This document shows positions 16,998-63,119 of a stretch of DNA of 64,000 bases, piece by piece. The notes beneath the pieces are model-generated. The model did not search any database. It worked only from the letters and a program-made list of their open reading frames with translations, and was not told the DNA's origin. The translations under genes were made by a program, and so were the position numbers. Origin of the DNA: Boswellia sacra (lineage: Eukaryota > Streptophyta > Magnoliopsida > Sapindales > Burseraceae); NCBI GenBank assembly GCA_013180625.2, contig SNVD02003354.1, positions 112,102 to 176,101 on the forward strand, read 5' to 3'. How positions within the stretch are numbered: position 1 is the first letter of the stretch; each line of letters starts with the position of its first letter.

Positions 16998-18028
16998 CTG
17001 AACACATAGAGCAATAATATCGGCAAAGCGTGACAGAGGCTTTGCAGGATACATGCCATTCAAGGCAGGATCTACCATTTTCGCCAATGCGTCTATGTCA
17101 TGTAGCTGGGGAGTAGCCCATCGGACAAGTGATTGTTCTAACCTTGGCCTTGAACTAAAGAACAAGTAATACAAGAACAAGCATGTAAACCACAACCCAG
17201 AAATTAAGCATGATAATAACAGTTTAGTAAAAACAAAAAACTTAGCACTAAACACAAGATTTACCTATCCAGCGGCTTCCGACAAGTTAAGAGCTCTAAC
17301 ATTACAACCCCAAAGCTGTATACATCACTTTTCACGGTGTATATTCTTGACAAGGCAAATTCAGGAGCGTTATAACCAAATGCACCAACCATCTATGTGG
17401 AAACCTGTCAACATTAAAAGAACAACACTTATCAAGCTAGTGTATAATAAAAGATATTTAAAGAACAAGTCCCAATAAGTAGAAAACATTTTCATGTCCT
17501 ATCCCTATTAATTACCTATCTTTCAATGTTTGGTGTTAGTGCAGCTAAACCACAATCTGACAAGTGGGAATTGAGCTCTTCATCAATTAAAATGTTTGCC
17601 GACTTGAAATTTCTATGTACAACAGAAGGCAAGCATACTTCGTGCAAGTACCTGACAAATAGAGCTACAGTTTAGAAAGGATCCACACGTCCTACATGGG
17701 GGGGTGAGGAGAAAAGTCTAGAGAGAGACATAAAATGTCATACACAGGTAACATACCCTAAAGCCCGGGCAGTTCCAAGGGCTACCCTAACACGTGCATT
17801 CTAAGTCAGATTCTTACTGCTATCATCAGCAAAGTGCAGCATATCATGCAAACTACCATTTCCTACATATTCATATACAAGAAGACGTTGGCCATGCTCA
17901 GCACAGAATCCAGCCAATGTAACAATGTTTGGGTGCCTCAAGTGCGACATGTTAGAAACAGCTTCTAGAAAATTATCTTCCTTCTGTAATGAAAGTGCTG
18001 CGTTGTCGATCTTCTTAACAGCCATTAT
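16998..18028 (-). pseudogene. Captured STRUBBELIG-receptor-family (SRF) kinase fragment, four exons
   Basis: Four exons can be read with GT/AG sites: 18028-17757, 17651-17516, 17404-17265 and 17154-16998. In order they encode the kinase-domain lysine strand (AVKKIDNAALSLQKEDNF), the hinge (LLVYEYVGNGSLHDMLHF), the catalytic-loop region ([20 protein letters not shown]), the DFG-equivalent (LSDCGLAAL), the activation/APE region ([14 protein letters not shown]), and the C-lobe ([20 protein letters not shown]). The changed HRD/DFG motifs (HRN, DCG) are normal for SRF atypical receptor kinases, which are plasma-membrane leucine-rich-repeat proteins. It is dead: a tryptophan codon is TAG near 17804, another stop lies at the end of exon 2, and a glutamine codon is TAG at the start of exon 3. 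The ectodomain and last exon are absent. LTR element 1 sits about 10 bp upstream of the first exon, in the former intron. Confidence 0.88.
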
Positions 18029-18039
18029 CTAGCTCCAGC

Positions 18040-19449
18040 TGATAGGTGTCTATTTATGTATTACTTTCATATCAATTTGTCCATGTTTCTTTGCTATATT
18101 CCTTGGTATTTTTATGGTTTTGTGTGGTTTTGATGTTTGTAGGAGTTTTGGAGCAACTTGCACAAAAATGGAGTAAAACCCTTCATTTTCACCTCTGCTA
18201 GTCAACCATCTTCTCGGATTTAATTGTATTGATATACAATGAACCCGATGACATATCATATACCGTTGAAAAGCTCTCGAAGTCTACTTTTTGGAGAAAT
18301 TTACGGTTTATGAATCCATTCAGTGTACCGAAAGTTGTAATCAAAACAGTGTGAGAAGTGTAGAAATGTAATTCCACACATCACTGTAGCATGTATAATA
18401 CGGGACACTGTAGCACGTTACTGTAGCAGAGTAATTAAACACATTTTAGGGTTTTATTTTCATAACTTGAAGGGGGAGAACGTGGAGGAAGGCTGCAGCT
18501 CTGGAATTCTTTCATCTCTTGGAGTTCTTGAAGGAGAAAGGAAGCTTGGAAAGAGGAAGAACTACAATCCAAAGAGAATTACATCAAATTTGCTAAGTTT
18601 TTCCCTTCCTTTCATTTTCTGGAATGTCTCCATGTTGTATTGTATTTACCACGTTCTTAAACATATGTAACTGAATCTGAATTGGTTGAGGGTGATTTCA
18701 AAGCTCCTGATAAGGTTTTTGTAAGTTGATTGTGCAAGAAGTTGTTATCCAATTCTCTAATTGAATTTGCTTGTATTTTCCTATATCTAATGCTTATGAT
18801 TGCTTGCTGGATTGTATTTCGAATGGCCAACTGAATATAATCTGGTTGTTGTCTACTGCTATACTAGAAATCTTGATCCGTAATTGTCTTGAATTTCTAA
18901 TCCTTAGTAGCAAAATTGTGATCAGAGATTGCAATTGGAGAATACAACCTAAGTTAAATAATCCGAGCTTGTGTGTTTATTGCTTAGATCAACCTATCTT
19001 TCTTATCGTAATGCATCCATTGAATTAAATTTAGAAAGCTTGTTCTAGGTTGTTTAATGGATAGAGATTAAATAAAGAGCCTGTTTTATTTAACAACAAA
19101 GTAAGGAAAGATTGGGATAACAGAGCTTGTTGTTATCTACGGTTGATAATTTCAATGGTGTAATTGGATGACAATTCTACAATTAATTTGTAAATCTATA
19201 TCTTGTGGTAGAGAAGGATCCCTTAACCAGATTTCTCTCATTGATCTTTCATTCAAATTAACTTTTGTTTTGTTATTCTTAATTTGCATTCTTATTTCAT
19301 TTAGTTAACCATTCAACAAAACTCCCCCATTTATCTGTTGTGGCTGTAAAATAACAAATTTAGTTAGAATCAATCCTCGTGGGAACGATATCTTACTCAT
19401 CACTTTATTACTTGTGCGACTAGTATACTTGCTAGTTTCGAACGCATCA
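18040..19449 (+). repeat. 5' LTR of element 1
   Basis: Begins TGATAGGTGTCTATTTATG and ends GTTTCGAACGCATCA; the termini form a short TGAT/ATCA inverted repeat. The end is followed after six bases by the primer site. It is nearly identical to the LTR at 57318-58726 and to the right LTR of this element. Repeated ACTGTAGCA-type motifs lie near 18380-18430. Short frames within LTRs (for example 18467-18670) recur in each copy and are not genes. Confidence 0.93.
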
Positions 19450-19455
19450 AGTTTT

Positions 19456-19473
19456 TGGCGCCGTTGCCGGGGA
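19456..19473 (+). promoter_or_regulatory. Primer-binding site (tRNA-Asp type), element 1
   Basis: TGGCGCCGTTGCCGGGGA is complementary to the 3' end of plant tRNA-Asp(GUC), ...CCCCGGCAACGGCG plus CCA. It lies six bases after the LTR end. Athila-type gypsy elements use this primer. Confidence 0.9.
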
Positions 19474-19562
19474 TTGATTTTCTAATCGATTTGTTATTTT
19501 GTTTTCATTGTTTATTCATATTTTCTTTTTTTTTCTTTTCTGATTGTTTGTGTTTAGACAAC

Positions 19563-21581
19563 ATGGCAGTAAACTTCTATCAATTCAGTAGCGGATTTGA
19601 GCCACAAGTACATTGGAGAGTAAATGAGGTAAGCACTCCGAACATTGAACAACAACTTTTCGAGCTAACCTCTCTTGTGGAAAACATGGCTGTAGGAGAT
19701 ATGCAAAAATCTTATGAATGTGGGATATATTCTACGATGGAGCATCCAATCGACATGTATCCAACTTTAAAAGAAGAATATATGGAACAAGCCAATGCCA
19801 TGGGTGGATTTCCAGGACAAACAAGGCAATGGTATGATCCCTTCTCTAATACTTACAATGCCGGATGGGGAGATCACCCTAATTTTAATTACTGGAATCA
19901 TCAACCAATCGCCCCAAATGCCATACCAAATCGGCCACAAGGTTTTAATCAACCTAGAGTGCAGCAACCATTTCAAATGCAACCACCACCAATGCCACAA
20001 CTAGCACCACAACCAGCTCCAGAAAACTCAGGTATGTCACTCCAGGATATTGTTAATGCACTTGCCACTAACACAATGCAATTCCAGCAGGAAACTGGGG
20101 CAAGTATCCAAAATCTGGCAAATCAAATGGGACAATTGGCTACTAGCATGAGCAAATTCGAGGGCCAAGGCTCAGAAAAATTATCTTCTCAAACGGTGAT
20201 CAATCCAAGAGAGAATGCTTATATGATAACTTTGCAAAATGGAGAGCAATTAGATGTCCTACCAAAGAAATCATAAACTGATGGAGAAGATGACACCACT
20301 TCCACCATGAACAAGACATCATCCTCTGAGGTAAGTCTTAAAACTGCTATTCCTTCTTATGTTACTCCTCCACCTTTTCCTAGCAGATTGGCAAAATTGA
20401 AGAAGAAGGAACAAGAACAAGAAATCCTGGAAACTTTTCAAAAAATCAAGGTAAATATACCACTTCTGGATGCTATCGAGCAAGCACCTCGTTATATAAA
20501 ATGTCTCAAGGAGTTATGCACTAGCAAGAGAAAGTTAAAAAGAAATAAGAAAGTAAGTGTAGGAAAAAATGTTTCAACTGTACTACAAAGAAAAATTCCT
20601 CCGAAATGCAATGATCCAGGTACGGTCACCATTCTATGCACCATTGGTAAAACCAAGTTTGAAATAGCTATGTTAGATTTAGCAGCAGTTATTAATGTCA
20701 TGCCATTTATTTATGCTTCTTTAAATCTTGGACCTTTTGCGAAAACTGGTATTACCATTCAACTTGCTGATCATTTTAATGCATATCCCAAAAGAGTTGT
20801 AGAAGATGTGCTTGTGCAGGTGAATCAATTGGTTTTCCCAGCAGACTTCTATGTCCTTAAAATAGAGGATGAGACATCTCCTAATCCAACTTCGATTCTT
20901 TTAGGAAGACCATCCTTGAAAAATGCTAGAACCAAGATTGATGTTCATGATGGCACTTTCACCATGGAGTTTGATGGCAAAATAATCCGTTTCAATATTT
21001 TCGAGGCAATGAGGTACCGTTGTAACTTGCATTCTGTTTTTGCAGTTGACATTATTGATTCTTTGCCACAACAATGTTTTGAGTTAACTCGCAAGGATGG
21101 ATTGGAAATGGCTATTAGTGAGCACATAGGGACAGAAAATTCCAAAGAACCAAGAAGGTTGATACAAGTGTCCAAAGAAATGGAGGAAGCTATGGCATGC
21201 TTAGATGAGACTATAGCTATAATCACAAACAGGTATGATGTTTCGTACATTGAATTGCCTTTATCTAATGAGAAACTTCTTCCTTCTGTGATGAAAGCCA
21301 ATACCTTGGAGCTTAAGCTACTTCCAGATTATTTGAGGCATGTGTTTTTGGGTGACAAAGATCCTTTGCTAGTTACAATAGAAATGGGCCTTGCACCATT
21401 ACAAGAAGACAAACACGTCCGAGTACTTAGAGTTCACAAAACAGCTATTAAGTGGATGATTGCTAACATCCAAGGCCCAGCCATATACTTGCACCATTTT
21501 TTGTTGGAAGAAGGATCCAAGCCCACTAGAGAAGCACAGTGGAGATTGGATCCTCCCATGATGGAATCAACGTTGGGCTGA
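19563..21581 (+). pseudogene. Truncated gag-protease frame of element 1
   Basis: ATG at 19563 begins MAVNFYQFSSGFE. One in-frame TAA at 20274-20276 (CAA in element 3) splits a single 672-codon frame. Order: short N-terminal piece; a degenerate CCHC knuckle near residues 53-66 in which the second and fourth cysteines are tyrosine (ECGIYSTMEHPIDMY); a Pro/Gln-rich linker; the SIQNLANQMGQLATSMSKFE helix typical of Athila gag; then the retropepsin-like domain (IPPKCNDPGT ... LLGRPSLKNARTKIDV). The active-site strand is MLDLAAVINVMP where the family has DLGAS. The frame ends with the linker that normally precedes reverse transcriptase (LEEGSKPTREAQWRLDPPMM) and stops there. The capsid domain and all of RT, RNase H and integrase are missing. 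It is unlikely to make active Gag or protease. Confidence 0.85.
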
Positions 21582-22023
21582 GGACGTTAAACCAAGCGCT
21601 TATTGGGAGGCAACCCAATGTTTTTGAATAATTAAAAAAAGAAGAAAAGAAAAATAAAATGAGGTAATAATGATCGATTTTTGTGTCTCGAGGAGATTCC
21701 TTTCGTAGGCCATCAAATTGATCAGGTTTTATCTCTCTTTGCCATCTGTCTTATTTGTTTTTATTTTTTTTACTTGTTTTTGACTTTTGTTTGTTATTGT
21801 GTTGTTATCTCTTTAATGTGTCTTTAGTTTCGTTTCTGCTCTTTTCTTTTCCTTCCTTTTGTTTAATTTGATTATTTCGTACTTCGAATTCATTTGTGCA
21901 ACAGCTTGAGGAAACATCCAAAGGGGAGCTGAAACCATTGCCCGAAGGTTTGAAACGTGCATATCTGGGAGAAGAACAAACTCAATCGCATTATCGGTAA
22001 TATCTCTCCTTTTCTCTTCTTCA
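21582..22023 (+). other. Post-pol region with conserved hairpin, element 1
   Basis: Right after the stop is GAGGACGTTAAACCAAGCGC followed by the hairpin ATTGGG-AGGCAA-CCCAAT (21602-21619). From memory, this block follows pol in many Athila-type elements. A pyrimidine-rich stretch then ends TTGTGCAACAG at 21894-21904, which looks like a splice acceptor. It is followed by a short open stretch (LEETSKGELKPLPEGLKRAY) similar to the protease-RT linker of gypsy polyproteins, ending at TAA before ORF2. The same layout is at 60880-61294. Confidence 0.6.
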
Positions 22024-22560
22024 ATGGATGCCGATATCTTTCTGTCGAACCTTTGTAAATATTTTCCTTCACTTCCTCAAAATGCTGTGCTTAAAATTTA
22101 TAAAGTACGGATGACTAGACTTAATCTGCCTGCGGATATCCAATGGCTTATTGAAGCCAAGGTGAGATTGTCCGGTGAGCCTGACATTAATCTCGCAAAA
22201 TACATGTCTGGTCTAGGAAAAAGCTACTACGCCAAGAGGCGAAGAGCGAAAAGGTTACAAGTATGTTATAAATGTGCTAGATGGAATTGTAACCAGACTT
22301 GTCGTTCATTAGGTTTTGCGTCCAGGAATAGAGAAGATAAACTTTCATTTATTAAGAATGGTTTGAGTAATGAGTCGCTGGATAATGTTTTGTTAACTCT
22401 CGAGTCACATTCTTGTGGACTTGTTCAGCGTGAATTGCTTAATCTATGGACACAATTTCGTGATGAATTGCAGTGTTATAGTCTAGGGAATCTGACTAAA
22501 AACGACCCTGTTTGCCAGTTTATAAGAAAACTGGATGGGAAGCAAATCCCCGACTCATAG
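22024..22560 (+). CDS. ORF2: unknown 178-residue basic Cys-containing protein in the env-like position
   Basis: ATG at 22024, TAG at 22558-22560, uninterrupted. I do not recognise the family. Visible features: no signal peptide or membrane segment; a basic stretch YAKRRRAKRLQ (about residues 69-79), immediately followed by C81-X2-C84-X4-C89-X3-C93 (CYKCARWNCNQTC), which could bind a metal; then an alpha-helix-like, leucine-rich C-terminal half (NREDKLSFIKNGLSNESLDN; LTLESHSCGLVQ; LLNLWTQFRDELQ). A second copy at 61295-61849 keeps most of the C-terminal sequence but has frame damage and a stop. It sits between the post-pol hairpin and the LOG gene, where Athila elements carry an env-like ORF. 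It could be a remnant of that ORF or a second captured host gene. Confidence 0.6.
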   Translation: MDADIFLSNLCKYFPSLPQNAVLKIYKVRMTRLNLPADIQWLIEAKVRLSGEPDINLAKYMSGLGKSYYAKRRRAKRLQVCYKCARWNCNQTCRSLGFASRNREDKLSFIKNGLSNESLDNVLLTLESHSCGLVQRELLNLWTQFRDELQCYSLGNLTKNDPVCQFIRKLDGKQIPDS

Positions 22561-22785
22561 AAGGCGTTTCAGCCGTTACTGGACGTAAAACCAGAGGAAG
22601 ATGTGAGCCACAATCACAACTACTTGTATATTTGAATGTGTGTTGTTGTTGTCGAATTTTTTTTCTTGTTTCGTTTGATCTGATTATCAATGTTGTTTTT
22701 GTGTTGTTGTTGTTTGTTGATTTTGTTTGTTTTAATTTCAAGTTTTCTTTTTGACAAACCATATGACTACCCTATGGCATAAGTA

Positions 22786-22986
22786 CACGTGGGAGACAAG
22801 TGTGGAGGTTTTGTCAACCTCCACCGAAAGTATATCTCTACTTTCCATGCTTCACGTGGGAGACAAGTGTGGCGGTTTTGTCAAACCCCGCCGAAAGCAT
22901 ATCTCCATTTTCCATGCTTCACGTGGGAGACAAGTGTGTAGGTTTTGTCAAACCTCGCCGAAAGCATATCTCATTTTTTCAAATCT
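22786..22986 (+). repeat. Array of three 67-bp hairpin units upstream of LOG, element 1
   Basis: Units start at 22786, 22853 and 22920 with CACGTGGGAGACAAGTGTG and contain an inverted repeat around the core TTTTGTCAA, then CCGAAAG. Unit 1 folds as GTGGAGGTT-TTGTC-AACCTCCAC (22802-22824). Unit 2 folds as GGCGG...CCGCC with an inner TTT/AAA. Unit 3 is weaker. A partial fourth unit (AACCCCCACCGAAA) follows near 23010. The same array with the same period is at 62081-62281. Confidence 0.85.
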
Positions 22987-23178
22987 TGGGGCGATAAATC
23001 TGCACGAGCAACCCCCACCGAAATTATGTCCCCATGTGTCAAATTTGAGAGTTTTACGTGTGTGTATATATCCATTCTTCATATTTTCAAATGTCATTAT
23101 TATAACCTGTCTTACACTTGAAAAGCATATTACCTAACGTGCATCATTGTCTTACACAAGGTTAGAGCACTTGTAGAA

Positions 23179-23828
23179 ATGGAGAAAACACCAATTCGGC
23201 GATTCCAAAATATATGCGTATTTTGTGGATCGCAATTTGGTAAAGATGGAGAGTTTACAACAGCAGCTCTTGATCTTGGTAGGACATTAGCTGCGAGGGG
23301 TATTCATTTGATTTATGGAGGGGGTAGTCTTGGGTTAATGGGGTGTGTGTCAACAGCTGCATCCCTAGGAGGGAGCAAAGTTCTCGGCATTATCCCTAAA
23401 CCATTAGCTGTACGAGATATCGTAGGCAACACCATGGGGAAGAGTTACAGGTTTCTAGTATGCATGAGCGTATTGCACATATGGTCATTAAATCTGATGC
23501 ATTTATAGCTTTGCCCGGTGGTTATGGTACATTAGAGGAGATATTTCAAATCACCTCTTGGGCACAGCTAAACATCCATCGGAAACCCATTGGTTTGTTA
23601 AATGTCAATAATTTTTTTGATGGTTTGTTGTCTTTTCTTGATCAAGCAGTAGAAAAAAACTTCATCTCACAGTCGGCGAGGCAAATCCTGGTTACAGCTT
23701 CAACTGCAGGGGAGTTAATTGACAAATTACAAGCATTCGTCTATTCGCCTGATCCAACAATAGCTCGGATAGATTGGTTTGGAGAAGGCAATAAGAGGCG
23801 TAAACTGGATTTAACGCTCCATCTGTAA
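23179..23828 (+). pseudogene. LOG-family cytokinin riboside monophosphate phosphoribohydrolase, captured copy 1
   Basis: Family role: LONELY GUY enzymes release free-base cytokinin from its riboside 5'-monophosphate in the cytosol. ATG at 23179 starts a frame with the nucleotide-fold start NICVFCGS (residues 11-18) and YGGGSLGLMG (46-55). After a one-base deletion near 23435 the reading continues in another frame with MHERIAHM (the MHxR arginine is kept), then PGGYGTLEE (residues 113-121 of the original frame), [10 protein letters not shown], and a C-terminus ending at TAA 23826-23828. Original length about 216 residues, normal for LOG proteins. Plant LOG genes usually have several introns; this copy has none, as expected of a reverse-transcribed transcript. 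It lies in the retroelement between the hairpin array and the 3' region, in sense orientation with the LTRs. As it stands the frameshift disables it. Confidence 0.9.
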
Positions 23829-24078
23829 TCTCTATCTGCTGGTTTGCTTCATTTTCGTTTGCTTTCTCTTTATTGTGTTTATTTGAGTTTTTTTTATGTC
23901 ATTTCTTTTGAGTTTTTCAGGTTGTTTCTTTCACCCCAGGTAATATTTTCTAATCTTGGCTTTTAGAGTGGTGGCTTAAAAAGTTCAAGTTCTCTTGAAA
24001 CGCATTCTGGAGTTCTTTAATCCATAATGGCTGAATAAGGAGGCTAACTTCTAAACTTTTTAGACCCATAATGGCTGA
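23829..24078 (+). other. Residual 3' region of element 1 with deletion junction
   Basis: The sequence follows the same order as the 3' region of elements 2 and 3 up to TTTTAGACCCA (24056-24069). It then jumps to TAATGGCTGAATAGGTG and the LTR. The string CATAATGGCTGAATA occurs at about 24024 and again at the junction near 24068. The polypurine tract seen in element 2 is absent. Confidence 0.7.
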
Positions 24079-25487
24079 ATAGGTGTCTATTTATGTATTA
24101 CTTTCATATTAATTTGTCCATGTTTCTTTGCTATATTCCTTGGTATTTTTATGGTTTTGTGTGGTTTTGATGTTTGTAGGAGTTTTGGAGCAACTTGCAC
24201 AAAAATGGAGTAAAACCCTTCATTTTCACCTCTGCTAGTCAACCATCTTCTCGGATTTAATTGTATTGATATACAATGAATCCGATGACATATTATATAC
24301 CGTTGGAAAGCTCTCGAAGTCTATTTTCTGGAGAAATTTACGGTTTATAAATCCATTCAGTGTACCAAAAGTTGTAATCAAAACAGTGTGAGAAGTATAG
24401 AAATGTAATTCCACAAATCACTGTAGCATGTATAATACGGGACACTGTAGCAGGTTACTGTAGCAGAGTATTTAAACACATTTTAGGGTTTTATTTTCAT
24501 AACTTGAAGAGGGGAGAACGTGGTGGAGGCTGCAGCTCTGGAATTCTTTCATCTCTTGGAGTTCTTGAAGGAGAAAGGAAGCTTGGAAAGAGGAAGAACT
24601 ACAATCCAAAGAGAATTACATCAAATTTGCTAAGTTTTTCCCTTCCCTTTCATTTTCTGGAATGTCTCCATGTTGTATTGTATTTACCACGTTCTTAAAC
24701 ATGTGTAACTGAATCTGAATTGGTTGAGGGTGATTTCAAAGCCCCTGATAAGGTTTTTGTAAGTTGATTGTGCAAGAAGTTGTTATCCAATTCTCTAATT
24801 GAATTTGCTTGTATTTTCCTATATCTAATGCTTATGATTGCTTGCTGGATTGTATTTCGAATGGCCAACTGAATATAATCTGGTTGTTGTCTATTGCTAG
24901 ACTAGAAATCTTGATCCGTAATTGTCTTGAATTTCTAATCCTTAGTAGCAAAATTGTGATCAGAGATTGCAATTGGAGAATACAACCTAAGTTAAATAAT
25001 CCGAGCTTGTGTGTTTATTGCTTAGATCAACCTATCTTTCTTATCGTAATGCATCCATTGAATTAAATTTAGAGAGCTTGTTCTAGGTTGTTTAATGGAT
25101 AGAGATTAAATAAAGAGCCTGTTTTATTTAACAACAAAGTAAGGAAAGATTGGGATAACAGAGCTTGTTGTTATCTACGGTTGATAATTTCAATGGTGTA
25201 ATTGGATGACAATTCTACAATTAATTCGCAAATCCATATCTTGTGGTAGAGAAGGATCCCTTAACCAGATTTCTCTCATTGATCTTTCATTCAAATTAAC
25301 TTTTGTTTTGTTATTCTTAATTTGCATTCTTATTTCATTTAGTTAACCATTCAACAAAACTCCCCCATTTATCTGTTGTGGCTGTAAAATAACAAATTTA
25401 GTTAGAATCAATCCTCGTGGGAACGATATCTTACTCATCACTTTATTACTTGTGCGACTAGTATACTTGCTAGTTTCGAATGCATTA
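24079..25487 (+). repeat. 3' LTR of element 1
   Basis: Homologous along its whole length to 18040-19449 with scattered substitutions and small indels (for example GAAGGGGGAGAACGTGGAGG versus GAAGAGGGGAGAACGTGGTGG). It starts with ATAGGTG fused to internal sequence and ends GAATGCATTA, where the 5' LTR has GAACGCATCA. It is followed by CTAGC. Confidence 0.9.
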
Positions 25488-26019
25488 CTAGCCAAACACA
25501 AAAGGACTTTGTCATTGAGTGAAAATTATAAGGAATGAATATATGCATGGCCCAGAAAAACCTGAGTAATGAATGCCATAGTATTCAATACTCTGACAAC
25601 TTCTATATTTATCCAAGTTAAAATATAACCATACCATAAGTTTACTATCTGGTTCGAGATAAAGCAAGGAAACTTGTCTCTCTCTCCAACTCAACAAAGC
25701 TACCGGCTCAGCATTCTGTTCTCAGGCAATGCCGTAAATCTATCTCTCCTCCTCTCATTCTCGGCTCCTAGAAAGAGCTTCTCACAGACATGCAAGACAA
25801 AACTATATAGTACGAGATGTAAACAATATGCAAGACAAAAATTACATATATTTTTAGTATTAAAATTTTATATATTGAGATTCAAAGTGGAATACATAAG
25901 CAGATCTGTAAAACTTAGCAGCCTCCAGATCCCCGAAATACATTAATTAAAAAAATGGACACAAGAATCAAAAATCAAAACCCAAATCAATGAAAACAAG
26001 AGAAGAGATGGAGCATTAC
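25488..26019. other. CACTA internal DNA between element 1 and the CPOX fragment
   Basis: On the minus strand this continues the intron interrupted by element 1, and the intron after the CPOX exon. Open stretches near 25680-25800 (minus) read like coding sequence in places but match nothing I know. The upstream SRF exon that should precede 18028 was not found. Confidence 0.4.
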
Positions 26020-47025: not shown

Positions 47026-47357
47026 GGGGAACGAGAGAGACAGAGGAGATTAGAAAAAAGAGGCGAGAGAATGCATATACTAACAGTGGTTATGCGGCCT
47101 TAACCCAAGGGGAACGAGAGAGACAGAGGAGATTAGAAAAAAGAGGCGAGAGAATGCATATACTAACAGTGGTTATGCGGCCTTAACCCAAGGGGAACGA
47201 GAGAGACAGAGGAGATTAGAAACAAGAGGCGAGAGAATGCATATACTAACAGTGGTTATGCGGCCTTAACCCAAGGGGAACGAGAGAGACAGAGGAGATT
47301 AGAAAAAAGAGGCGAGAGAATGCATATACTAACAATGGTTATGTGGCCTTAACCCAA
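47026..47357. repeat. 83-bp tandem repeat, four copies
   Basis: Copies start at 47026, 47109, 47192 and 47275 with GGGGAACGAGAGAGACAGAG and end with GGCCTTAACCCAA. Copies 1-3 are nearly identical; copy 4 has a few changes (ACAATGG, TGTGG). Purine-rich first half. No frame spans the array. Confidence 0.97.
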
Positions 47358-49779
47358 GGTACCTCTTGAGATAACTTATACAATCCTTATACGCTTCTCT
47401 TGCAATTTTTTACACTTCCATTTTACTTTATTTGATTGCTAAACAGAGGTTTTATTTTATTGTTTGTATAATCATTCATTTATACTATCCTAACCGATTT
47501 GTCAAATACGTCGGGTCGAGACTGCGGGAGAATAAAAAAAGGAAAAACAATTAAAGTACTTTTTGTTAAGGGTTCTTTTTTCTTTTTTCTTTTTTTTAAA
47601 TAAAAACACTTAACTTATTTATCTTTTTTTATCTTTTTCTAACAAAAAAAATCATTACTTGTGAATTATGATAAGGCCTAGTGCTTTTACCTTTGAATTT
47701 TGTTTTATGAAATTATCCTTTATCAAGTGAAATTTGTTATTCAACATCATAGCCATTGCCGCTGCAACAACCGTATTAACTTCTCCGTCACCATTAACCC
47801 TACCACCCACCCTCATTGTCTTGTCACAAGAGAGTAATGTGAAAGCATTTATTAATTATTTATATAGATGTTTTATTGATTAATAAAATCTTAACGTGTA
47901 TATTTATATTTACAAAAAAAAAACTTAAAAAAAAGTATAAATACTTTATATTTATGTAATCAAACTTTAACCAAATTCTAATACTATTTGAACTTAGTTA
48001 TATAAACCTAGAGACAATAAGCCTACTTTCTTAGAGGTTATATTGAATTTTGTATTTTATTTTCAAGAAATGTTATGAAAATAAAAGACTAAATTAAAAT
48101 ATTGTATGTTGGAGATTTGAATGTTTATAATGAATTATTGAGACGATAGTATAATTTTTTAGTTGATAATGCTATCAAATTACTTTTAAAAAATTAATAG
48201 AAAGATAAATAAAATAATATTTGAAGTAATATATATTATTTTATTCAAAATTAAATAAACATAATATTTTTTAATTTCAAGTAATATTAATTTTATATAT
48301 ACTTAAGCAACTAAAAATAATTTAAGTTTTTTAGTTAAAATTTTATTCTATTTCAAAAATACATTGTAGAATAATTCAAAAGACTCCACAATTATAAGTA
48401 ATTATAACCCAAAAAAAAAATCAAAAATTTTATTCAAAATGTTTTAGCTTTGCTTGTACCTATTTTGAGCTTGAAAACACCAACAAAGAATTGAACATAT
48501 TTTTCTTATAAATAAAAAATTAGACTTAAAATTTATCCAAAAATATAAATAAATAATTGATTCATTTTCCTTTTTTTGTTTTTTAAACTAAAGAAAGGAA
48601 TCCAAATCTTTCTGCAATTTCTTTCCCCTTCATTTTTCTTTCCTTATTATATTATTCTTTTTCTCCTCTTTCACCTTTGTATTAGAAGAATGCCAAGTGA
48701 AAAAAAAAAAAGTTGCAAATAAATATTAATTAACCAAAAAAATTAACAAGAAGCCCAAATTTATAATATATAAGGTTCAATTTCTCGAATAATTTAATTA
48801 TTTGATAACAACAACTCCTAGTTCAATTTTTTTTCCTTCTTTTTTTTTTTTTTTTTTAATTGAAGAACACTAGAGCAAATACTATTGGGCCGATTAAATC
48901 CAAAGAGCCTAATCAGGAAAATGAAAGCCCGGCCTCTCAAGAGCCCACTAAGCATGCATTTACTTCAAACTTTTTTATTAGCCCAATGATTGGTCCAACG
49001 ATGAAACAATTATATAACAAGGAAGGACATGTCATCACTTTTTTTTTTTTTTTAATCCATCACTCGGTTAAATCTAATTCTAAATATTTAGATTTGAGTT
49101 CTTTGACTTTTGTTTGTTTTTCAAATTTATCTTTTAAAAAAGTGGTTTACTGTTTGTTCTAACAAGCGAAAATTTTCATATTAAATATAAATGATTACTG
49201 TCTGAACGACGGATAAAATTTTGATTGCATATAAAAGTTTGCAGTCCACAAAAAGAGCATAAAAACAATCATGCCAAATTTTTTTTTTAAAATTTTTTAG
49301 AATCATAGGATTTAAAGCATTTGAACTCATTTGAACTTAACATGTCACGAAAATATAAAACATTTTATACTACTGTACATATTGATTTACGGTTGACAGA
49401 TGTTATTGTGTATTTTTTAAATCTTAAAGATGAAGTGTATATAAGGCAAATCTCGGGAGTGATATTGCCATTTATCTATTAAGTGAAACAACAAATGGCA
49501 CTTAAGTTTGGATATATTTCAAATGCTAAAACAGGAAAAGATATTAGCATTAGCAATAAGTTATTCAAAGCATTTGTTTTGATAATTGTGTTTTAAAGAG
49601 AAATTAAATTTATGTTTGAAGAATTTTGAGATTAATTTTTTTTTTGTTTTAAAATAAAAGATGCTTTTTGATTTGTAATGATGAATTTTGTTAACCATCC
49701 TTGAGCGGTGGCTTGACAATTACCAAGCCCGATAAATGGTATACAACCTTTCATACGACTTAAGCAAATATGGAGTCAT
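47358..49779. other. AT-rich DNA, no gene seen
   Basis: Long A and T runs, with no supported gene. The 100-codon frame at 48860-49162 is interrupted by a poly-T run and resembles nothing. Confidence 0.45.
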
Positions 49780-53576: not shown

Positions 53577-55002
53577 TGATGCGTTCGAAACTAGCAAGTA
53601 TACTAGTCGCACAAGTAATAAAGTGATAAGTAAGATATCGTTCCCACGAGGATTAATTCTAATTGAATTTGTTATTTCCAGCAACAATTAACTAAACAGG
53701 GGGGGATTTTTGTTGGTGATTAACTAAACTTAATGCAATGCAAATGAAGAATAACAAAACAGAAATAAAACGATGAAAAATCAATGGGAGAAACTGGTTA
53801 AGGGATCATTCTCTACCACAAGATATGGATTTGCGAATTAATTGTAGAATTGTCATCCAATTACAGCATTGAAGTTATCAACCGTAGATAACAACAAGTT
53901 CTGTTATCCCAATCTTTCCTTACTTTGTTGTTAAATAAAACAAGCTCTTTATTTAATCTCTATCCATTAAACAACCTAGAACAAGCTCTCTAAATTTAAT
54001 TCAATGGATGCATTACGATAAGAAAGATAGGTTGATCTAAGCAATAAACACACAAGCTCGGATTATTTAACTTAGGTTGTATTCTCCAATTGCAATCTCT
54101 GATCACAATTTGCTACTAATGATAGAAATTCAAGACAATTACGGATCAAGATTTCTAATCTAGCAATAGACAATACCCAGATTATATTCAGTTGGCCACC
54201 CAAATACAATCAGCAAGTAATCATAAGCATTAAACATGAGAAAATACAAGCAACTTCAATTAGAGAATTGGATAATAATTTCTTGCACAATCAACTCACA
54301 AACACCATATCAAGGGCTTTGAAATCACCCTCAACAAATTCAGATTTAGTTACACATATTCAGACACAATACAAATACAATACAATACATAGCAATTCCA
54401 GAAAATGAAAGGGAAATGAAAAACTTAGCAAATCTGATGAAATCTCTTAGGATTTGTAGTTCTTCCTCTTTCCAAGCCTTCAATCTCCTTCAAGAACTCT
54501 AAGAGATGAGAGAAATCCAAAGATGCAGCCTCCTCCACGTTCTCCCCTCTTCAAGTTATGAAATAAAACCCTAAAATGTGTTTAAATACTCTGCTACAGT
54601 AACTGTCTCTTATACACATCTAGATGTGTATAAGAGACAGGTATTATACATGCTACAGTGATGTGTGGAATTACATTTCTACACTTATCACACTGTTTTG
54701 ATTACAACTTTCGGTACACTGAATGGATTCATAAACCGTAAATTTCTCCAAAAAGTAGATTTCGAGAGCTTTACAACGGTATATGATATGTCATCGGGTT
54801 CATTGTATATCAATACAATTAAATCCGAGAAGATGGTTGACTAGCAGAGGTGAAAATGAAGGGTTTTACTCCATTTTTATGCAAGTTGCTCCAAAACTCC
54901 TACAAACATCAAAACCACACAAAAACATAAAAATACCAAGGAATATAGCAAAGAAACATCGACGAATTGATATGAAAATGATATATAAATAGACACTTAT
55001 CA
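53577..55002 (-). repeat. 3' LTR of element 2
   Basis: On the minus strand it runs TGATAAGTGTCTATTTATAT ... GTTTCGAACGCATCA. Same family as the other LTRs but more diverged in places (TAGAAATTCAAG block, loss of several bases near 54200-54300). It contains the adapter sequence described separately at 54603-54640. Confidence 0.92.
54603..54640. other. Tn5 mosaic-end pair: Nextera mate-pair junction adapter (artifact)
   Basis: CTGTCTCTTATACACATCT (54603-54621) is followed directly by its reverse complement AGATGTGTATAAGAGACAG (54622-54640). This is the Tn5 mosaic end in head-to-head form, the junction adapter of Nextera mate-pair libraries. In the other LTR copies this spot holds ordinary LTR sequence (about 17 bases around GTGCTACAGTGTCC), which is missing here. 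It is a synthetic sequence in the assembly, not plant DNA. Confidence 0.97.
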
Positions 55003-55015
55003 AATTCCCCCACAC
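55003..55015 (-). promoter_or_regulatory. Polypurine tract of element 2
   Basis: Minus strand GTGTGGGGGAATT sits immediately before the LTR start TGATAAGTG. This is the expected plus-strand priming site in reverse transcription. Confidence 0.75.
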
Positions 55016-56955
55016 GTAGACTTTGCTAGTCCTCGAGCAACTGCGACAATATGAAATAAAACTAAACCGAAACAGAATCAACAAAAAAATTAAAACACAC
55101 AAATGCTTTATCTTGCAAATAGGCCTCAAAGATTGTACATAATTATAACCCAAGGAAAACTTCAAAATAATGCACTTGATCAAGAATTTTTTCTCAAAGA
55201 TTAGTTTCGCTTCACTTCAATTCCTCAAGTGTGTGTGTGTAGAGCCATTCTCACCTAATCACTTGTAACCCGGATGAGTTTATGCATAAAAATGAATCAT
55301 ATTTAATAGTGAAGATGTGTGTATAAATGAACTCCATAGGCCTGCTTTTTAAATCACTCTCCACTAATGTAGACATGCACAACACCAAGGATCAAGTAGG
55401 GCTTTATTAAGCTTGTAACGTTTGGCTTGGGTGAAGGTATGATAAAATATAATAATTTAGCTCAAATCACCCGCAAACACATAAATCATTCAAGATTATG
55501 TAGAGCTCAACCACATAACATAAAAAAAATTCGTTTGAATTCACCAAGTGACTCCCCCAAACTTATTCAAAACACTCAATCTCTCATTTTATTATTGTTT
55601 TTTTTTTTAACACAAAAGAAACTACACCCCCACACTTTGTTGTTTCATTCTTTTTAAGAACACTCAAGGGTATAGATTTGTTTTCTTTTTTTTCTTTTTT
55701 TTTTCTTTAACTGCAATTCTCTTCCCCCACACTTAAACAACACATTGTCCTCAATGTTTAAGTACGTGGAAGATAAGACAGATTGTTTTTTTACAAACAC
55801 AATAAAACTCACTTGCATTGCTCATGGCACAATCCAACCTCCTCTAACTTCCCAAAACCAGAACATAGCTCAAAATATCATCGTGAATGATCTACATGCT
55901 CATAGGTAAGGGACAAACTGTTTGGGGAAAAAAAATTCATTTGAGGTTAGGAATCTTTTAGTGAGTTAGCAAAAAAAAAAAGCTTACAGAGGCTCAAAGG
56001 GGTAACTAGGGATCAATTTCAATTAAGGTTGGCTATTAAGGCTCAAACGGTCCAAAGATGGCCTAAATCATTTCCCCAATGTTGCACAGCCTAGGATTTC
56101 GCCTCGAGTGACCATCAAACAAGTTCTAGAATTCATTGAAATCTGAAGAAACATTTAAATTACATAAACTTTCTCTAAGTGAACAAATAACTCAGTGATA
56201 ATAGCTCAGTGCTCAATGTTGCGCAAGGAATCAAAAGCAAAGCGAAAACCAATAAACATTTCAAGCACACAGATCCATGCATCATTTATCATTTTCCAAG
56301 AGTTATTCTTAATTCAATCATTATCTTATCATCGACCCACAAAATGCAAGAAAAGAGGTACGTGGCGTTGTTACACCTGAGTCAAGATTGTATATTTCAA
56401 CAATCCTTAGGACCAGTAGCCCGCAGACTTAAGGTTTCCAGCCTATATACCTTTATTATAAAAGAACAAAACGAGAAACAAGACACTTCAAACAACATGA
56501 AATAAATAAACTACAGATTTATTTAGAGAGAATGCGTTTCAAGGGTTAAAGAAAACCCCATATTCTGCCATTCTCAGGTTGTTCCCCAATTGTTTTTTTT
56601 TAATCGAAACTGGTAAAGATAAAAACACATAACAACTCTAAATTACGCAAAACTAAACTCACTCATAAAATAACAAAGTTCAACAAGTCAGCAAACAAAA
56701 ACAAGTTAGTTAGAATGGGTCTACAAAGTTTAGAAGTTAGCCTCCTTATTCAGCCATTATGGATTGAAGAGATCCAGAATGCGTTTCAAGAGAACTTGAA
56801 CTTTTTAAGCCACCACTCTAAAAACCGAGATTAGAAAATATTACCTGGGACGAAAGAAATAACCTGAAAAGGCTCAAAAGAAATAACATGAAAAATCTCA
56901 AATAAACACAATAAAAAGAAAGCAAACAAAAGTGAAGCAAATCAGTAGATAAAGA
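55016..56955 (-). other. 3' region of element 2 between LOG and polypurine tract
   Basis: About 1.9 kb without a long frame. It is collinear in reverse with 63120-64000 of element 3: a shared landmark is the complement of GAAATATACAATCTTG, near 56385-56400 and at about 63666. Several T- and A-rich runs lie near 55600-55720. Short frames (55427-55657, 56195-56505) are not conserved as proteins. Confidence 0.6.
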
Positions 56956-57317
56956 TTACAGACTTAGCGTTAAATCCAGTTTACGCCTTTTATTGCCTTC
57001 CGTAAACCAATCTATCCAAGCTATTGTTGGATCAGGCGAATAGACGAATGCTTGTAATTTATCAATTAACTCCCCTGCAGTTGAAGCTGTAACCAGGATT
57101 TGCCTCACCGACTGTGAGATGAAGTTTTTTTCTACTGCTTGATCAAGAAAAGACAACAAACCATCAAAAAAATTATTGACATTTAACAAACCAATGGGTT
57201 TCCGATGGATGTTTAGCTTTGCCCAAGAGGTGATTTGAAATATCTCCTCTAATGTACCATAACCCCCGGGCAAAGCTATAAATGCATCAGATTTAATGAT
57301 CATATGTGCAATACGCT
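56956..57317 (-). pseudogene. LOG C-terminal half, captured copy 2, cut by element 3
   Basis: From 57317 leftwards the frame is open to the TAA/TGA-type end near 56956 with no lesion: [62 protein letters not shown]. Against copy 1 only a handful of residues differ (for example AQLN to AKLN, SARQ to SVRQ, IARID to IAWID). The N-terminal half is separated by the insertion of element 3 and lies outside the window. Before that insertion this copy may have been intact. Confidence 0.9.
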
Positions 57318-58726
57318 TGATAGGTGTCTATTTCTGTATTACTTTTATATCAATTCGTCCATGTTTCTTTGCTATATTCCTTGGTATTTTTATGTTTTTG
57401 TGTGGTTTTGATGTTTGTAGGAGTTTTGGGGCAACTTGCACAAAATGGAGTAAAACCCTTCATTTTCACCTCTGCTAGTCAGTGATCTTCTCGGATTTAA
57501 TTGTATTGATATAGAATGAAACCGACGACACGTTATATACCGTTGGAAAGCTCTCGAAGTCTATTTTCTGGAGAAATTTACGGTTTATAAATCCAGTCAG
57601 TGTACCAAAAGGTGTAATCAAAACAGTGTGAGATGTATAGAAATATAATTCCACAAGCCACTGTAGCATGTATAATACGGGGTACTATAGTAAGTCACTG
57701 TAGCAGAGTATTTAAACACATTTGAGGGTTTTATTTTCATAACTTGAAGAGGGGAGAACGTGGTAGAGGCTGCAGCTCTAGAATTCTTTCATCTCTTGGA
57801 GTTCTTGAAGGAGAAAGGAAGCTTGGAAAGAGGAAGAACTACAATCCAAAGAGAATTACATCAAATTTGCTAAGTTTTTCCCTTCCCCTTTATTTTCTGG
57901 AATGTCTCCATGTTGTATTGTATTTACCACGTTCTTAAACATGTGTAACTGAATCGAATTGGTTGAGGGTGATTTCAAAGCCCCTGATATGGTTTTTGTA
58001 AGTTGATTGTGTAAGGAATTGTTATCCAATTCTCTAATTGAAGTTGCTTGTATTCTCCCATATTTAATGCTTATGATTGCTTACTGATTGTATTTGAGTG
58101 GCCAAATGAATATAATCTGGTTGTGATTTATTGCTAGACTAGAAATCTTGATCCGTAATTGTCTTGAATTTCTAATCCTTAGTAGCAAAATTGTGATCAG
58201 AGATTGCAATTGAAGAATACAACCTAAGTTAAATAATCCGAGCTTGTGTGTTTATTGCTTAGATCAACCTATCTTTCTCATCGTAATGCTTCCATTGAAT
58301 TAAACTCAGAGATCTTGTACTAGGTTGTTTAATGGATAGAGATTAAATAAAGAGCTTGTTTTATTTAACAACAAAGTAAGGAAAGATTGGGGTAATAGAG
58401 CTTGTTATTATCTACGGTTGATAAATTCAATGATGTAATTAGATGACAATTCTACAATTAATTCGCAAATCCATATCTTGTGGTAGAGAAGGATCCCTTA
58501 ACCAGGTTCTCTCATTGAGTTTTCACTCCAATTAACTTTCTGTTTTGTTATTCTTTACTTGCATTAATATTTCATCTAATTAATCAATCAACAAAAACCC
58601 CCTCATTTAGTTTATTGTTGCTTTCGAATAACAAATTCAATTAGAATCAATCCTCGTGGGAACGATATCTTACTCATCACTTTATTACTTGTGCGACTAG
58701 TATACTTGCGAGTTTCGAACGCATCA
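57318..58726 (+). repeat. 5' LTR of element 3
   Basis: TGATAGGTGTCTATTTCTG ... GTTTCGAACGCATCA. Collinear with 18040-19449, with substitutions and small indels. Confidence 0.93.
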
Positions 58727-58732
58727 AGTTTT

Positions 58733-58750
58733 TGGCGCCGTTGCCGGGGA
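58733..58750 (+). promoter_or_regulatory. Primer-binding site (tRNA-Asp type), element 3
   Basis: TGGCGCCGTTGCCGGGGA, identical to the site in element 1, six bases after the LTR. Confidence 0.9.
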
Positions 58751-61294: not shown

Positions 61295-61849
61295 ATGGAT
61301 GCTGATATCTTTCTATCGAACCTTCGTAAATATTCCCCTTCACTTCCTCAAAATGCTGTGTTTAAAATTTATAAAGTACGGATGACTAGACTTTGGGCAT
61401 TGATGCTCCTAAATGTGACTACTGATATCCGATGGCTTATCGAAGCCAAGGTGAGATTGTCCGGTGAGCCGGACATTAATCTCGCAAAATACATGCCTGG
61501 TCTAGGAAAAGAGCTACTACGCCAAGAGGCGAAGAGCGAAAAGGTTACAAGTATGTTATAAATGTGCTAGATGGAATTGTAACCAGACTTGTCGTTCATT
61601 AGGTTTTGCATCCAGGAATAGAGAAGATAAACTTTCATTTATTAAGAAGGGTTTGAGTAATGAGTCGCTGGATAATGTTTTGTTAACTCTCGAGTCACAT
61701 TCTTGTGGACTTGTTCAGCTTGAATTGCTTAATCTATGGACACAATTTCGTGATGAATTGCAGTGTTATAGTCTAGGGAATCTGACTAAAAACGACCCTG
61801 TTTGACAGTTTATACGAAAACTGGATGGGAAGCAAATCCCCGACTCATA
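61295..61849 (+). pseudogene. ORF2 copy in element 3, broken
   Basis: Same start (MDADIFLSNLRKYSPSLPQN) as ORF2 of element 1. It differs by about 18 extra bases around RLWALMLLNVTTDIRW and a frame shift near KYMPGLGKE. It resumes with CYKCARWNCNQTC and the conserved C-terminal half. A TGA at 61803-61805 replaces the cysteine codon of DPVCQF. The unknown C-X2-C-X4-C-X3-C motif and the leucine-rich tail are conserved in sequence with element 1. Confidence 0.6.
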
Positions 61850-62080
61850 GAAGGCGTTTCAGCCGTTACTGGACGTAAAACCAGAGGAAGATGTGAGCCA
61901 CAATCACAAATACTTGTATATTTGAATGTGTGTTGTTGTTGTCGAATTTTATTTCTTTCTTGTTTCGTTTGATCTGATTATCAATGTTGTTTTTTATGTT
62001 GTTGTTGTTTGTTGATTTTGTTTGTTTTAATTTCAAGTTTTCTTTTTGACAAACCATATGACTACCCTATGGCATAAGTA

Positions 62081-62463: not shown

Positions 62464-63119
62464 ATGGAGAAAACACCAATTCGGCGATTCCGCAATATAT
62501 GCGTATTTTGCTGATCGCAATTTGGTAAAGATGGAGAGTTTACCACAGCAGCTCTTGATCTTGGTAGGACATTAGCTGCGAGGGGTATTAATTTGATTTA
62601 TGGAGGGGGTAGTCTTGGGTTAATGGGGTGTGTATCAACAGCTGCATCCCTAGGAGGGAGCAAAGTTCTCGGCATTATCCCTAAACCATTAGCTATACGA
62701 GATATCGTAGGCAACACAATCGGGGAAGAGTTACAAGTCTTAGCATGCATGAGCGTATTGCACATATGGTCATTAAATCTGATGCATTTATAGCTTTGCC
62801 CGGTGGTTATGGTACATTAGAGGAGATATTTCACATCACCTCTTGGGCACAGCTAAACATCCATCGGAAACCCATTGGTTTGTTAAATGTCAATAATTTT
62901 TTTGATGGTTTGTTGTCTTTTCTTGATCAAGCTGTAGAAATAAATTTTATCTCACCCTCAGCGAGGCAAATCCTTGTTACAGCTTCAACGGTAAGGGGAG
63001 TTACAATTGACAAACTACAAGAATCGTCTTTCGCCTGATCCAACAAAGCTCGGATGATTTGGTTTGAGAGAAAGAAGGCAATAAGAGGCGCGTAAAACGA
63101 TTTAACACTCCACCTGTAA
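62464..63119 (+). pseudogene. LOG-family gene, captured copy 3, broken
   Basis: ATG at 62464. The codon after CVFC is TGA (62512-62514) where copy 1 has glycine. YGGGSLGLMG and [13 protein letters not shown] are intact. A frame shift lies near 62741, where copy 1 and the family read into [21 protein letters not shown] (about 62799) and [10 protein letters not shown] follow in the next frame. The C-terminus after [14 protein letters not shown] has several small indels ([11 protein letters not shown]) and ends at TAA near 63117-63119. No introns. The lesions differ from those of copy 1. Confidence 0.88.

Follow-up and report, generated by a model that had tools for sequence, protein, structure and literature searches.

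A virus-type NABP gene and a LOG-family gene in the env-like position of an Athila-type retrotransposon family of Boswellia sacra

We describe a family of LTR retrotransposons in Boswellia sacra in which two genes, NABP and then LOG, fill the env-like position downstream of pol. The first is predicted to encode a zinc-finger protein belonging to the nucleic-acid-binding protein (NABP) families of carlaviruses, and the second is a member of the LOG family, with putative cytokinin nucleotide phosphoribohydrolase activity. The order of pol domains and the lack of a second RNase H in a fuller copy, L018, place the lineage, as judged from sequence, among Athila-type Ty3/gypsy elements. We give even chances to the reading in which such a lineage carries NABP and LOG as accessory genes that serve the element, suppressing silencing and promoting cell division.

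Anatomy of the copies in the window

The window (the whole 64,000-nucleotide stretch analysed, from contig SNVD02003354.1) contains three copies, which their sequence identifies as internally deleted members of an Athila-type Ty3/gypsy family. Their features are as follows.

18040-25487, + strand: copy 1, whole element, LTR-bounded and internally deleted
18040..19449, + strand: copy 1 5' LTR, TG...CA ends, about 1,410 bp
19456..19473, + strand: copy 1 primer-binding site, TGGCGCCGTTGCCGGGGA
19474..20276, + strand: copy 1 gag remnant, resembling the first long frame of L018
20307..21581, + strand: copy 1 protease region to the start of the RT-encoding frame (as in L018); relatives in L014, L012 and L018
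22024..22560, + strand: copy 1 NABP gene (earlier 'ORF2'), open frame, 178 aa
22477..22625, + strand: copy 1 conserved nucleotide element over the NABP stop (last ~26 codons plus 62 nt)
22786..22972, + strand: copy 1 array of hairpin-like 67-nt units
23179..23828, + strand: copy 1 LOG-like gene, sense to the LTRs, frame broken
24076..25487, + strand: copy 1 3' LTR
53577..55002, - strand: copy 2 3' LTR, including a sequencing-adapter junction
55003..56870, - strand: copy 2 internal tail, its polypurine tract GTGGGGGAATT adjoining the LTR
56956..57317, - strand: copy 2 LOG 3' part, cut by the insertion of copy 3
57318..58726, + strand: copy 3 5' LTR; the element continues past the window end
61295..61850, + strand: copy 3 NABP, interrupted
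62464..63119, + strand: copy 3 LOG, with an early stop and a frame break further on

The two LTRs of copy 1 are separated by a K2P distance of 0.025, and by eye an imperfect 5-bp repeat (CCAGC/CTAGC) flanks the element. The primer-binding site recurs in copy 3 at 58733 and is putatively of the tRNA-Asp type; a search for a tRNA gene within the window found none. The stretch 19474-21581 is similar to the L018 frames before and at RT and gave zero matches in a Pfam scan; it presumably represents a gag tail and protease. The remainder of RT-RNaseH-INT is deleted, and a further deletion of about 1.7 kb, removing the tail and the polypurine tract that copy 2 retains, precedes the 3' LTR. The LOG gene of copy 1 is split into two overlapping frames (23179-23508 and 23460-23828).

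A preliminary description of the window had reported three gene-carrying copies sharing LTR, primer site, gag tail and protease, ORF2, hairpin array and LOG, and this stands in part. The shared anatomy holds for copies 1 and 3. Copy 2 is only partly shared because copy 3 inserted into its LOG; what the window contains of it, from 57317 down to 53577, is the 3' end of LOG, followed by the tail and a single LTR, its 5' part lying outside. ORF2 is indeed common to copies 1 and 3, but it is not anonymous: its identity as a virus-type NABP had been missed. In the window, LOG is broken in copies 1 and 3 and cut in copy 2.

The two accessory genes and their place in the family

Against the Pfam families, ORF2 matches Viral_NABP (E 8.1e-11, 42.7 bits, cut-off 23) and Carla_C4 (E 1.7e-5, 25.1 bits, cut-off 20.9), and among 19 aligned NABP members 18 match the former and 17 the latter at E <= 0.001. 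The copy 1 protein has a CxxC...C...C finger and a KRRRAKR basic stretch, and it lacks 6 aa that most aligned relatives have at an internal position. Alignment columns of the finger and basic stretch are invariant or nearly so; the finger pattern is found in 97 and the basic pattern in 103 of the 120 listed relatives, and the finger in all 12 open NABPs from the Boswellia sacra genome. These features, the two Pfam matches, the zinc finger and the adjacent basic stretch, are shared with flexivirus NABPs such as chrysanthemum virus B p12. Unlike those proteins, the element NABP, of about 180 aa and of putative function, sits between LTRs in a plant chromosome and not in a flexivirus genome. Searched against PDB, the NABP profile found nothing better than E 0.73, an IMG/VR scan returned 34 pattern stretches of which 0 were confirmed, and the predicted structure (pLDDT 51) is too poor for fold testing.

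The direction of transfer bears on this likeness. The NABP relatives (135, of which 120 are listed) include annotated proteins from six eudicot genera, as expected if flexiviruses acquired NABP from plants, out of a retroelement or a host gene, and the element did not acquire it from a virus. Nothing decisive speaks against that direction; both Pfam families, judging by their names, are presumably built mainly on viral proteins, and we regard this direction as somewhat unlikely.

The halves of the window LOG match PF18306 at 1.8e-7 and PF03641 at 4e-31 in Pfam; for PF03641 (cut-off 27 bits) the 3' frame scores 108.4 bits and the LOG of L018 135.4. In a PDB-sequence search they match two solved Arabidopsis structures of LOG type, 2a33 and 1ydh. 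Both searches agree with the LOG identity first proposed from motifs, and the sense orientation of the gene and its env-like position inside an LTR element were likewise correctly recognised. The element LOG is intronless, a single frame of 216 aa, and 16 host-like LOG places in the genome have open frames of 49-101 aa. PGGxGTxxE, YGGG and M[HY]ER are present in all 34 open LOG copies of Boswellia sacra, which were chosen by LOG score, and FCGS in 32 of them; the whole LOG Pfam domain is present and free of stops at 150 of 150 scored places, these being the best scorers among 10,198 loose candidates.

A genome search for copies returned 3,931 occurrences of an exact 27-mer located after NABP and 2,368 of an exact LOG-start 24-mer in the 638.6-Mb genome, with 0 occurrences of the reversed-control k-mers for both. 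The element has multiplied, as had been claimed, and its copies are not assembly duplicates: the window copies are about 90-94% identical to one another (90% for the internal regions of copies 3 and 1), and the family occupies thousands of places. In the fuller copy L018/L019 the order is gag/protease region, RT-RNaseH, broken INT, NABP and LOG, with the L018 NABP broken near its start. Pfam matches in L018 follow the Ty3/gypsy order of RVT_1, RT_RNaseH and Integrase_H2C2; rve, at 25.1 bits, falls short of the curated threshold of 32.6, and the protease is without a Pfam match. An additional RNase H (aRH) marks Tat, according to PMC6317226. A search of four L018 gag/pol frames, from one interrupted copy, found no second RNase H. 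Athila4 and Calypso resemble the family in Ty3/gypsy domain order, in that no second RNase H was found, and in extra ORFs that occupy a large 3' region behind INT; the Athila primer site is of the Asp type. They differ in that their 3' gene is env-like or Athila ORF-1, whereas the Boswellia sacra element has NABP and LOG.

A second subfamily repeats the INT-NABP-LOG order in L024 and L028, and L055 is flanked by its own LTR pair (98.1% identical). Across the fetched loci, LOG is preceded by a NABP match in 43 of 47 (the other 4 have no NABP match) and in 8 of 8 picked by the 27-mer. This recurrence in two subfamilies, together with fused NABP and LOG gene models in other species (Rhamnella P0083; Orobanche P0101 and P0104), argues strongly against the window copies or the NABP-LOG adjacency being assembly artefacts. 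The assembly is imperfect, because an untrimmed transposase adapter junction was left inside copy 2 at 54603-54640; even so, an artefact is scarcely credible.

Two further sequence features accompany the genes. Synonymous conservation in the element across the NABP stop gives one-sided Fisher P values of 0.003, 0.001 and 0.06 for three lineage pairs, over a stretch chosen after the alignment had been inspected. Two compensatory pairs occur among 45, folds of single sequences score weakly (z -1.63, -1.18, -0.45), and an Rfam scan of 18000-25600, up to E 1, gave no match. In three lineages the frame past the NABP TAG runs about 22 codons before the next stop. Read-through of this amber stop was considered and rejected: by eye, most differences after TAG alter the amino acid, and we therefore read the conservation as nucleotide-level constraint and not as a protein extension. 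The 67-nt array units are found in 52 of 57 sources, and two of them fold well (z -3.88); a selected hairpin structure was rejected for the array, as 313 of 1,000 shuffles of the partners pair at least as well as the true ones.

Selection, decay and the origin of the pair

A signature of purifying selection is seen both among the open copies that were chosen and in comparisons across lineages. Spectrum-corrected N/S ratios are 0.25-0.39 for LOG and 0.16-0.63 for NABP, and LOG ratios between subfamilies are 0.41-0.44; these within- and between-subfamily values come from uninterrupted copies only, in pairs that are not independent. The LOG ratio is 0.51 outside the stretch used for choosing copies. 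NABP ratios between three lineages are 0.40-0.47, and codon-position identities of the L001 NABP to Boswellia sacra are 0.72/0.81/0.56.

A different picture comes from eight copies not chosen by LOG, in which LOG is uninterrupted in 2 of 8 and NABP in 0 of 8, with N/S ratios closer to neutral (0.65, 0.72); NABP is open in 12 of the 47 loci, a sample picked by LOG score. Such decay would fit NABP and LOG as passengers, captured long ago and amplified with the element, having no role in its success. The same reading gains from L001, in which NABP follows INT and LOG is absent from the 983 bases examined, so that LOG is not obligatory, and from the listed LOG relatives, where the catalytic motif PGGxGTxxE is present in 88 of 120 and missing in 32. 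At least 175 aa are retained by 26 of these 120 relatives, with FCGS in 11 of the 26 and YGGG in 23; many relatives are evidently decayed, since motifs are missing in many of the 120. Set against passengers are the LOG ratios within and between subfamilies and outside the copy-selection stretch, the NABP ratios between lineages, and the recurrence of the pair in the Rhamnella and Orobanche gene models. On balance we consider passengers unlikely.

Relatives of the element LOG occur in several plant orders, which removes the earlier suggestion that uptake was an event of this element. Plant LTR elements do transduce host genes, maize Bs1 being an example named in PMC7264820, and LOG could in principle have entered elements by independent, recent captures in several plant lineages, the source each time being a LOG gene of the host itself. 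Three results make this very improbable. The tree with host LOGs, proposed earlier, places 28 element-like LOGs on one side of a single split (100/100) and 20 host LOGs on the other, with 2 of the 28 element-like rows shown inside elements and host paralogues sampled in part. The LOG part of Orobanche P0104 is 56% identical to the element LOG and 37% to an Orobanche host LOG, and the NABP-fused gene being nearer the element LOG implies that the pair is old or has spread horizontally. Finally, identity to an Arabidopsis LOG3 piece is 70-91% for the 16 host-like places versus mostly 53-60% for element copies.

Known systems, a possible mechanism and its meaning

Maize Bs1, a low-copy case involving other genes, and other transducing LTR elements likewise contain host gene sequence, and the Boswellia sacra family differs in its thousands of copies and in having LOGs that form a clade distinct from those of hosts. 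Steinbauerova is said to have described, in 2011, two Athila-like elements similar to LOGL4. The preliminary view that a LOG in an LTR element lacked precedent does not hold, as LOG (YgdH) domains have been published for Gypsy consensus sequences from two Citrus species and, under a looser filter, from poplar (PMC9289625, which also cites a 2011 report). With a LOG-type domain inside a Gypsy LTR element, these very probably belong to the same type of element as the Boswellia sacra family. The section of PMC9289625 on these domains differs from our account in containing no NABP companion, host-LOG comparison or pair conservation, and our literature search found no report of NABP, or of the NABP-LOG pair, in such elements. 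AlkB-like domains occur in plant RNA viruses too. Gypsy elements of orchids that contain an RNA demethylase (AlkB-like) domain (PMC9289625) are similar in having an extra enzyme domain shared with plant RNA viruses, and differ in that the gene is another one and the Boswellia sacra element has two accessory genes.

If the accessory genes serve the element, LTR-driven full-length RNA, perhaps spliced or reinitiated, would yield NABP, which would bind RNA and blunt host silencing of the element. Chrysanthemum virus B p12 is described as a silencing suppressor and transcriptional activator, and as inducing hyperplasia (PMC12172455); by analogy, NABP might also activate transcription that promotes cell growth. 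Local release of active cytokinin by LOG would move the cell towards division or meristem identity, and in dividing or meristem cells new insertions could reach the germ line. Internally deleted copies of the window type may be mobilised by proteins of fuller relatives, with their accessory genes carried passively. A more specific version remains tentative, at somewhat less than even chances: a two-gene host-manipulation cassette, combining a NABP silencing suppressor with a cytokinin-activating LOG, in which both genes and the RNA element at the NABP stop are under selection, and which was kept over the rosid-asterid divide or spread horizontally.

Because the NABP and LOG families have tested functions, the reason why some plant LTR elements have extra 3' genes becomes directly testable here, in the form of whether an element benefits when silencing is suppressed and cytokinin raised. 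Relatives bear database names such as 'cytokinin riboside 5'-monophosphate phosphoribohydrolase' and 'hypothetical protein', and they may inflate eudicot LOG gene counts if their element origin goes unnoticed. The NABP-LOG pair ties plant RNA viruses to retroelements via a shared gene family. Were the two genes to form a host-manipulation cassette, the element would simultaneously counter RNA silencing and promote cell division, and the link between plant RNA viruses and retroelements would be a direct one.

Copies in the window and across the genome

Copy 1 of the Athila-type Ty3/gypsy element carries a nucleic-acid-binding protein gene (NABP) and a gene of the LONELY GUY (LOG) family, whose enzymes activate cytokinin.

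18040-25487: copy 1, with two LTRs of about 1,410 bp
19456: primer site of copy 1
22024-22560: NABP of copy 1, followed by a 67-nt array
23179-23828: LOG of copy 1, followed by the 3′ LTR

Copy 1 also holds what we take, from similarity to the fuller locus L018, to be a gag remnant and protease region reaching the start of the RT frame. Copy 3 starts at 57318, inside the LOG of copy 2, which lies on the opposite strand; copy 2 is therefore interrupted rather than truncated. The 5′ part of copy 2 lies beyond the window, and its tail and polypurine tract are missing from copy 1.

A fuller copy on another contig, C975 (L018/L019), has the order 5′ LTR, primer site/gag start, gag/protease region, RT-RNaseH, INT, NABP, array, LOG and tail, read up to the tail. 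In it ~1.4 kb of other sequence splits the protease region, INT is broken, and NABP is disrupted close to its start. Contigs C1783 and C4244 hold copies with both LTRs and internal deletions. The K2P distances of the LTR pairs (0.025 in copy 1, 0.026 in C1783 and 0.003 in C4244) indicate that the family moved recently, the divergence in copy 1 corresponding to ~1 million years at the rice rate of 1.3e-8.

A second subfamily, with LOG 67-69% identical, shows INT-NABP-LOG in two loci (L024 and L028), and a third, L055, stands between LTRs 98.1% identical (C6751:580346-581873 and 587013-588543), between which no pol match was found. INT followed by NABP also occurs in L001, a contig of 3,330 bp deposited as part of a bacterial genome (Candidatus Nomurabacteria), with no LOG within the remaining 983 bases after NABP; its plant-like Gypsy integrase and NABP make it a probable plant contamination of that public genome. 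The preliminary description's family of multiplied copies is borne out by exact matching, which gives lower bounds: the genome has 1,968 + 1,963 occurrences of a 27-mer that follows the NABP stop and 1,208 + 1,160 of a 24-mer across the LOG start (reversed controls, 0 for each).

Several further features were seen in the window. Beside copy 1, on the minus strand, is an exon that matches protein kinases (PF07714, 1.1e-12; 17801-18039 and 25488-25560), and by eye the insertion lies close to an intron-exon border. Past the pol remnant, at 21560-21620, GACGTTAAACCAAGCGC..TTGGGAGGCAACCCAA is hairpin-like, in a layout resembling the element after NABP (GACGTAAAACCAG...). Directly before NABP, at 21915-21985, and outside the main protease/RT frame, is a second fragment that by eye is similar to the PR-RT linker; it suggests that template switching had a part in how the deleted form arose. 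Inside the LTR of copy 2, at 54603-54640, a 19-bp transposase mosaic end (exact match) directly abuts its own reverse complement, presumably a junction of the Nextera mate-pair type; this is untrimmed adapter left in the assembly. At 47026-47359 an 83-bp unit is repeated in tandem four times almost unchanged (98% matches).

LOG of the element and LOG of the host

The naming of the window frame as LOG holds: its 3′ frame matches PF03641 (4e-31) and the solved plant LOG-type protein 2a33 (4.2e-34), and its 5′ frame matches the same 2a33 chain (6.5e-24). Open copies outside the window encode 216 aa. Among 10,198 loose LOG-domain candidates in the genome (638.6 Mb, 7,431 contigs), the best 150 were scored, and in all 150 a single frame without stops spans the entire domain. 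PGGxGTxxE is kept in 34/34 and FCGS in 32/34 open LOGs of the genome, and PGGxGTxxE in 88 of the 120 LOG relatives listed.

Matches to a 45-residue piece of Arabidopsis LOG3 (150 scored of 7,559 candidates) split into two groups. The first 16 places are 70-91% identical to the piece, each matching residues 1-43; their open frames, 49-101 aa long, could not hold a complete LOG, which is what intron-bearing host genes would give. Beyond a gap, nearly all other places have 53-60% identity and extend to residue 45; two exceptions (60% and 63%) end at residue 43. One branch (support 100/100) of a 48-protein tree separates 28 element-like from 20 host LOGs; the element-like ones are so called by search similarity, and only two of them, L018 and L055, were demonstrated inside elements. 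The proposed comparison with host genes, made on part of the host paralogues, separates the two sets. An NABP-linked LOG of Orobanche (P0104) is 56% identical to the Boswellia element LOG versus 37% to an Orobanche host LOG.

NABP and the conserved stretch at its stop codon

The NABP frame, the ORF2 of the preliminary description, matches Viral_NABP (42.7 bits, cut-off 23) and Carla_C4 (25.1, cut-off 20.9), as do 18 and 17, respectively, of 19 aligned members, in which the finger cysteines and basic stretch vary little or not at all. Among 5.8 billion proteins searched, 135 relatives came up; annotated proteins from Populus, Xanthoceras, Acer, Citrus, Rhamnella and Orobanche, as well as many nameless ones, are among the 120 listed. 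Three of those listed join NABP and LOG domains in one gene model (P0083, Rhamnella; P0101 and P0104, Orobanche). Neighbouring Rhamnella locus tags are LOG (RR03511, P0121) and NABP (RR03512, P0067), and by eye a further Rhamnella protein, P0057, joins an integrase C-terminus to NABP.

The final 26 NABP codons and ~62 nt past the TAG stop are conserved beyond what the protein needs. For this stretch, picked after inspection of the alignment and with codons 146-158 excluded, the share of identical codons at common amino acids is 18/21 versus 47/92 in codons 1-145 for L001 and Boswellia (P 0.003), 20/22 versus 51/93 when the two subfamilies are compared (P 0.001) and 15/19 versus 56/98 for a third lineage pair (P 0.06). 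Compensatory change affects 2/45 predicted pairs, the one within NABP being two synonymous changes (by eye), and fold z-scores are weak. The stretch could help in expressing LOG, or could be left over from the 3′ end of a virus. The 67-nt array is present in 52/57 sources and 0/3 second-subfamily loci; covariation does not support pairing in it.

Selection and possible function

Of 47 loci picked by good LOG scores, 34 have an uninterrupted LOG, 12 an uninterrupted NABP and 4 no NABP match. Pooling all pairs gives a pN/pS of 0.175 for LOG (496 pairs among 32 main-subfamily copies) and of 0.334 for NABP (66 pairs among 12 copies). Relative to a placement null that preserves both substitution type and CpG/CHG context, ratios for uninterrupted copies, in non-independent pairs, are 0.39, 0.28 and 0.25 for LOG and 0.16, 0.40 and 0.63 for NABP over three bins of rising divergence. 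The LOG ratio, again for uninterrupted copies in non-independent pairs, is 0.51 outside the Pfam stretch used for selecting copies and 0.41-0.44 between subfamilies. The NABP ratio among L001, L055 and the Boswellia genome is 0.40-0.47, and L001 NABP identity by codon position is 0.72/0.81/0.56.

An open LOG frame, whose frequency the preliminary description proposed to test, is present in most loci picked by LOG score. Among eight loci from the 27-mer search, taken in list order, LOG is uninterrupted in two and NABP in none. Ratios there are 0.65 and 0.72, and nonsense changes stand at 0.56-0.57 of expectation. This is what would be seen if active lineages under selection were mixed with copies in decay, but it also leaves room for NABP and LOG having been carried along by an amplifying element without a role in its success.

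LOG inside an LTR element, which the preliminary description called unusual, is already in print: a study that cites Steinbauerova (2011) found the YgdH/LOG domain in Gypsy consensus sequences from two species of Citrus and, with a looser filter, from poplar (PMC9289625). The accessible parts of the literature on LOG, NABP and silencing suppressors with retrotransposons yielded no account of an element-borne NABP or of the NABP-LOG pair. Flexivirus replicase-like sequence is described in cucumber, in available text that lacks the term 'nucleic acid binding' (PMC3136472).

For the carlavirus cysteine-rich protein CVB p12, both activation of transcription and suppression of silencing are described (PMC7588395), as is hyperplasia caused by its expression (PMC12172455). 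LOG enzymes activate cytokinin. NABP and LOG may both favour dividing cells, and NABP might additionally blunt silencing.
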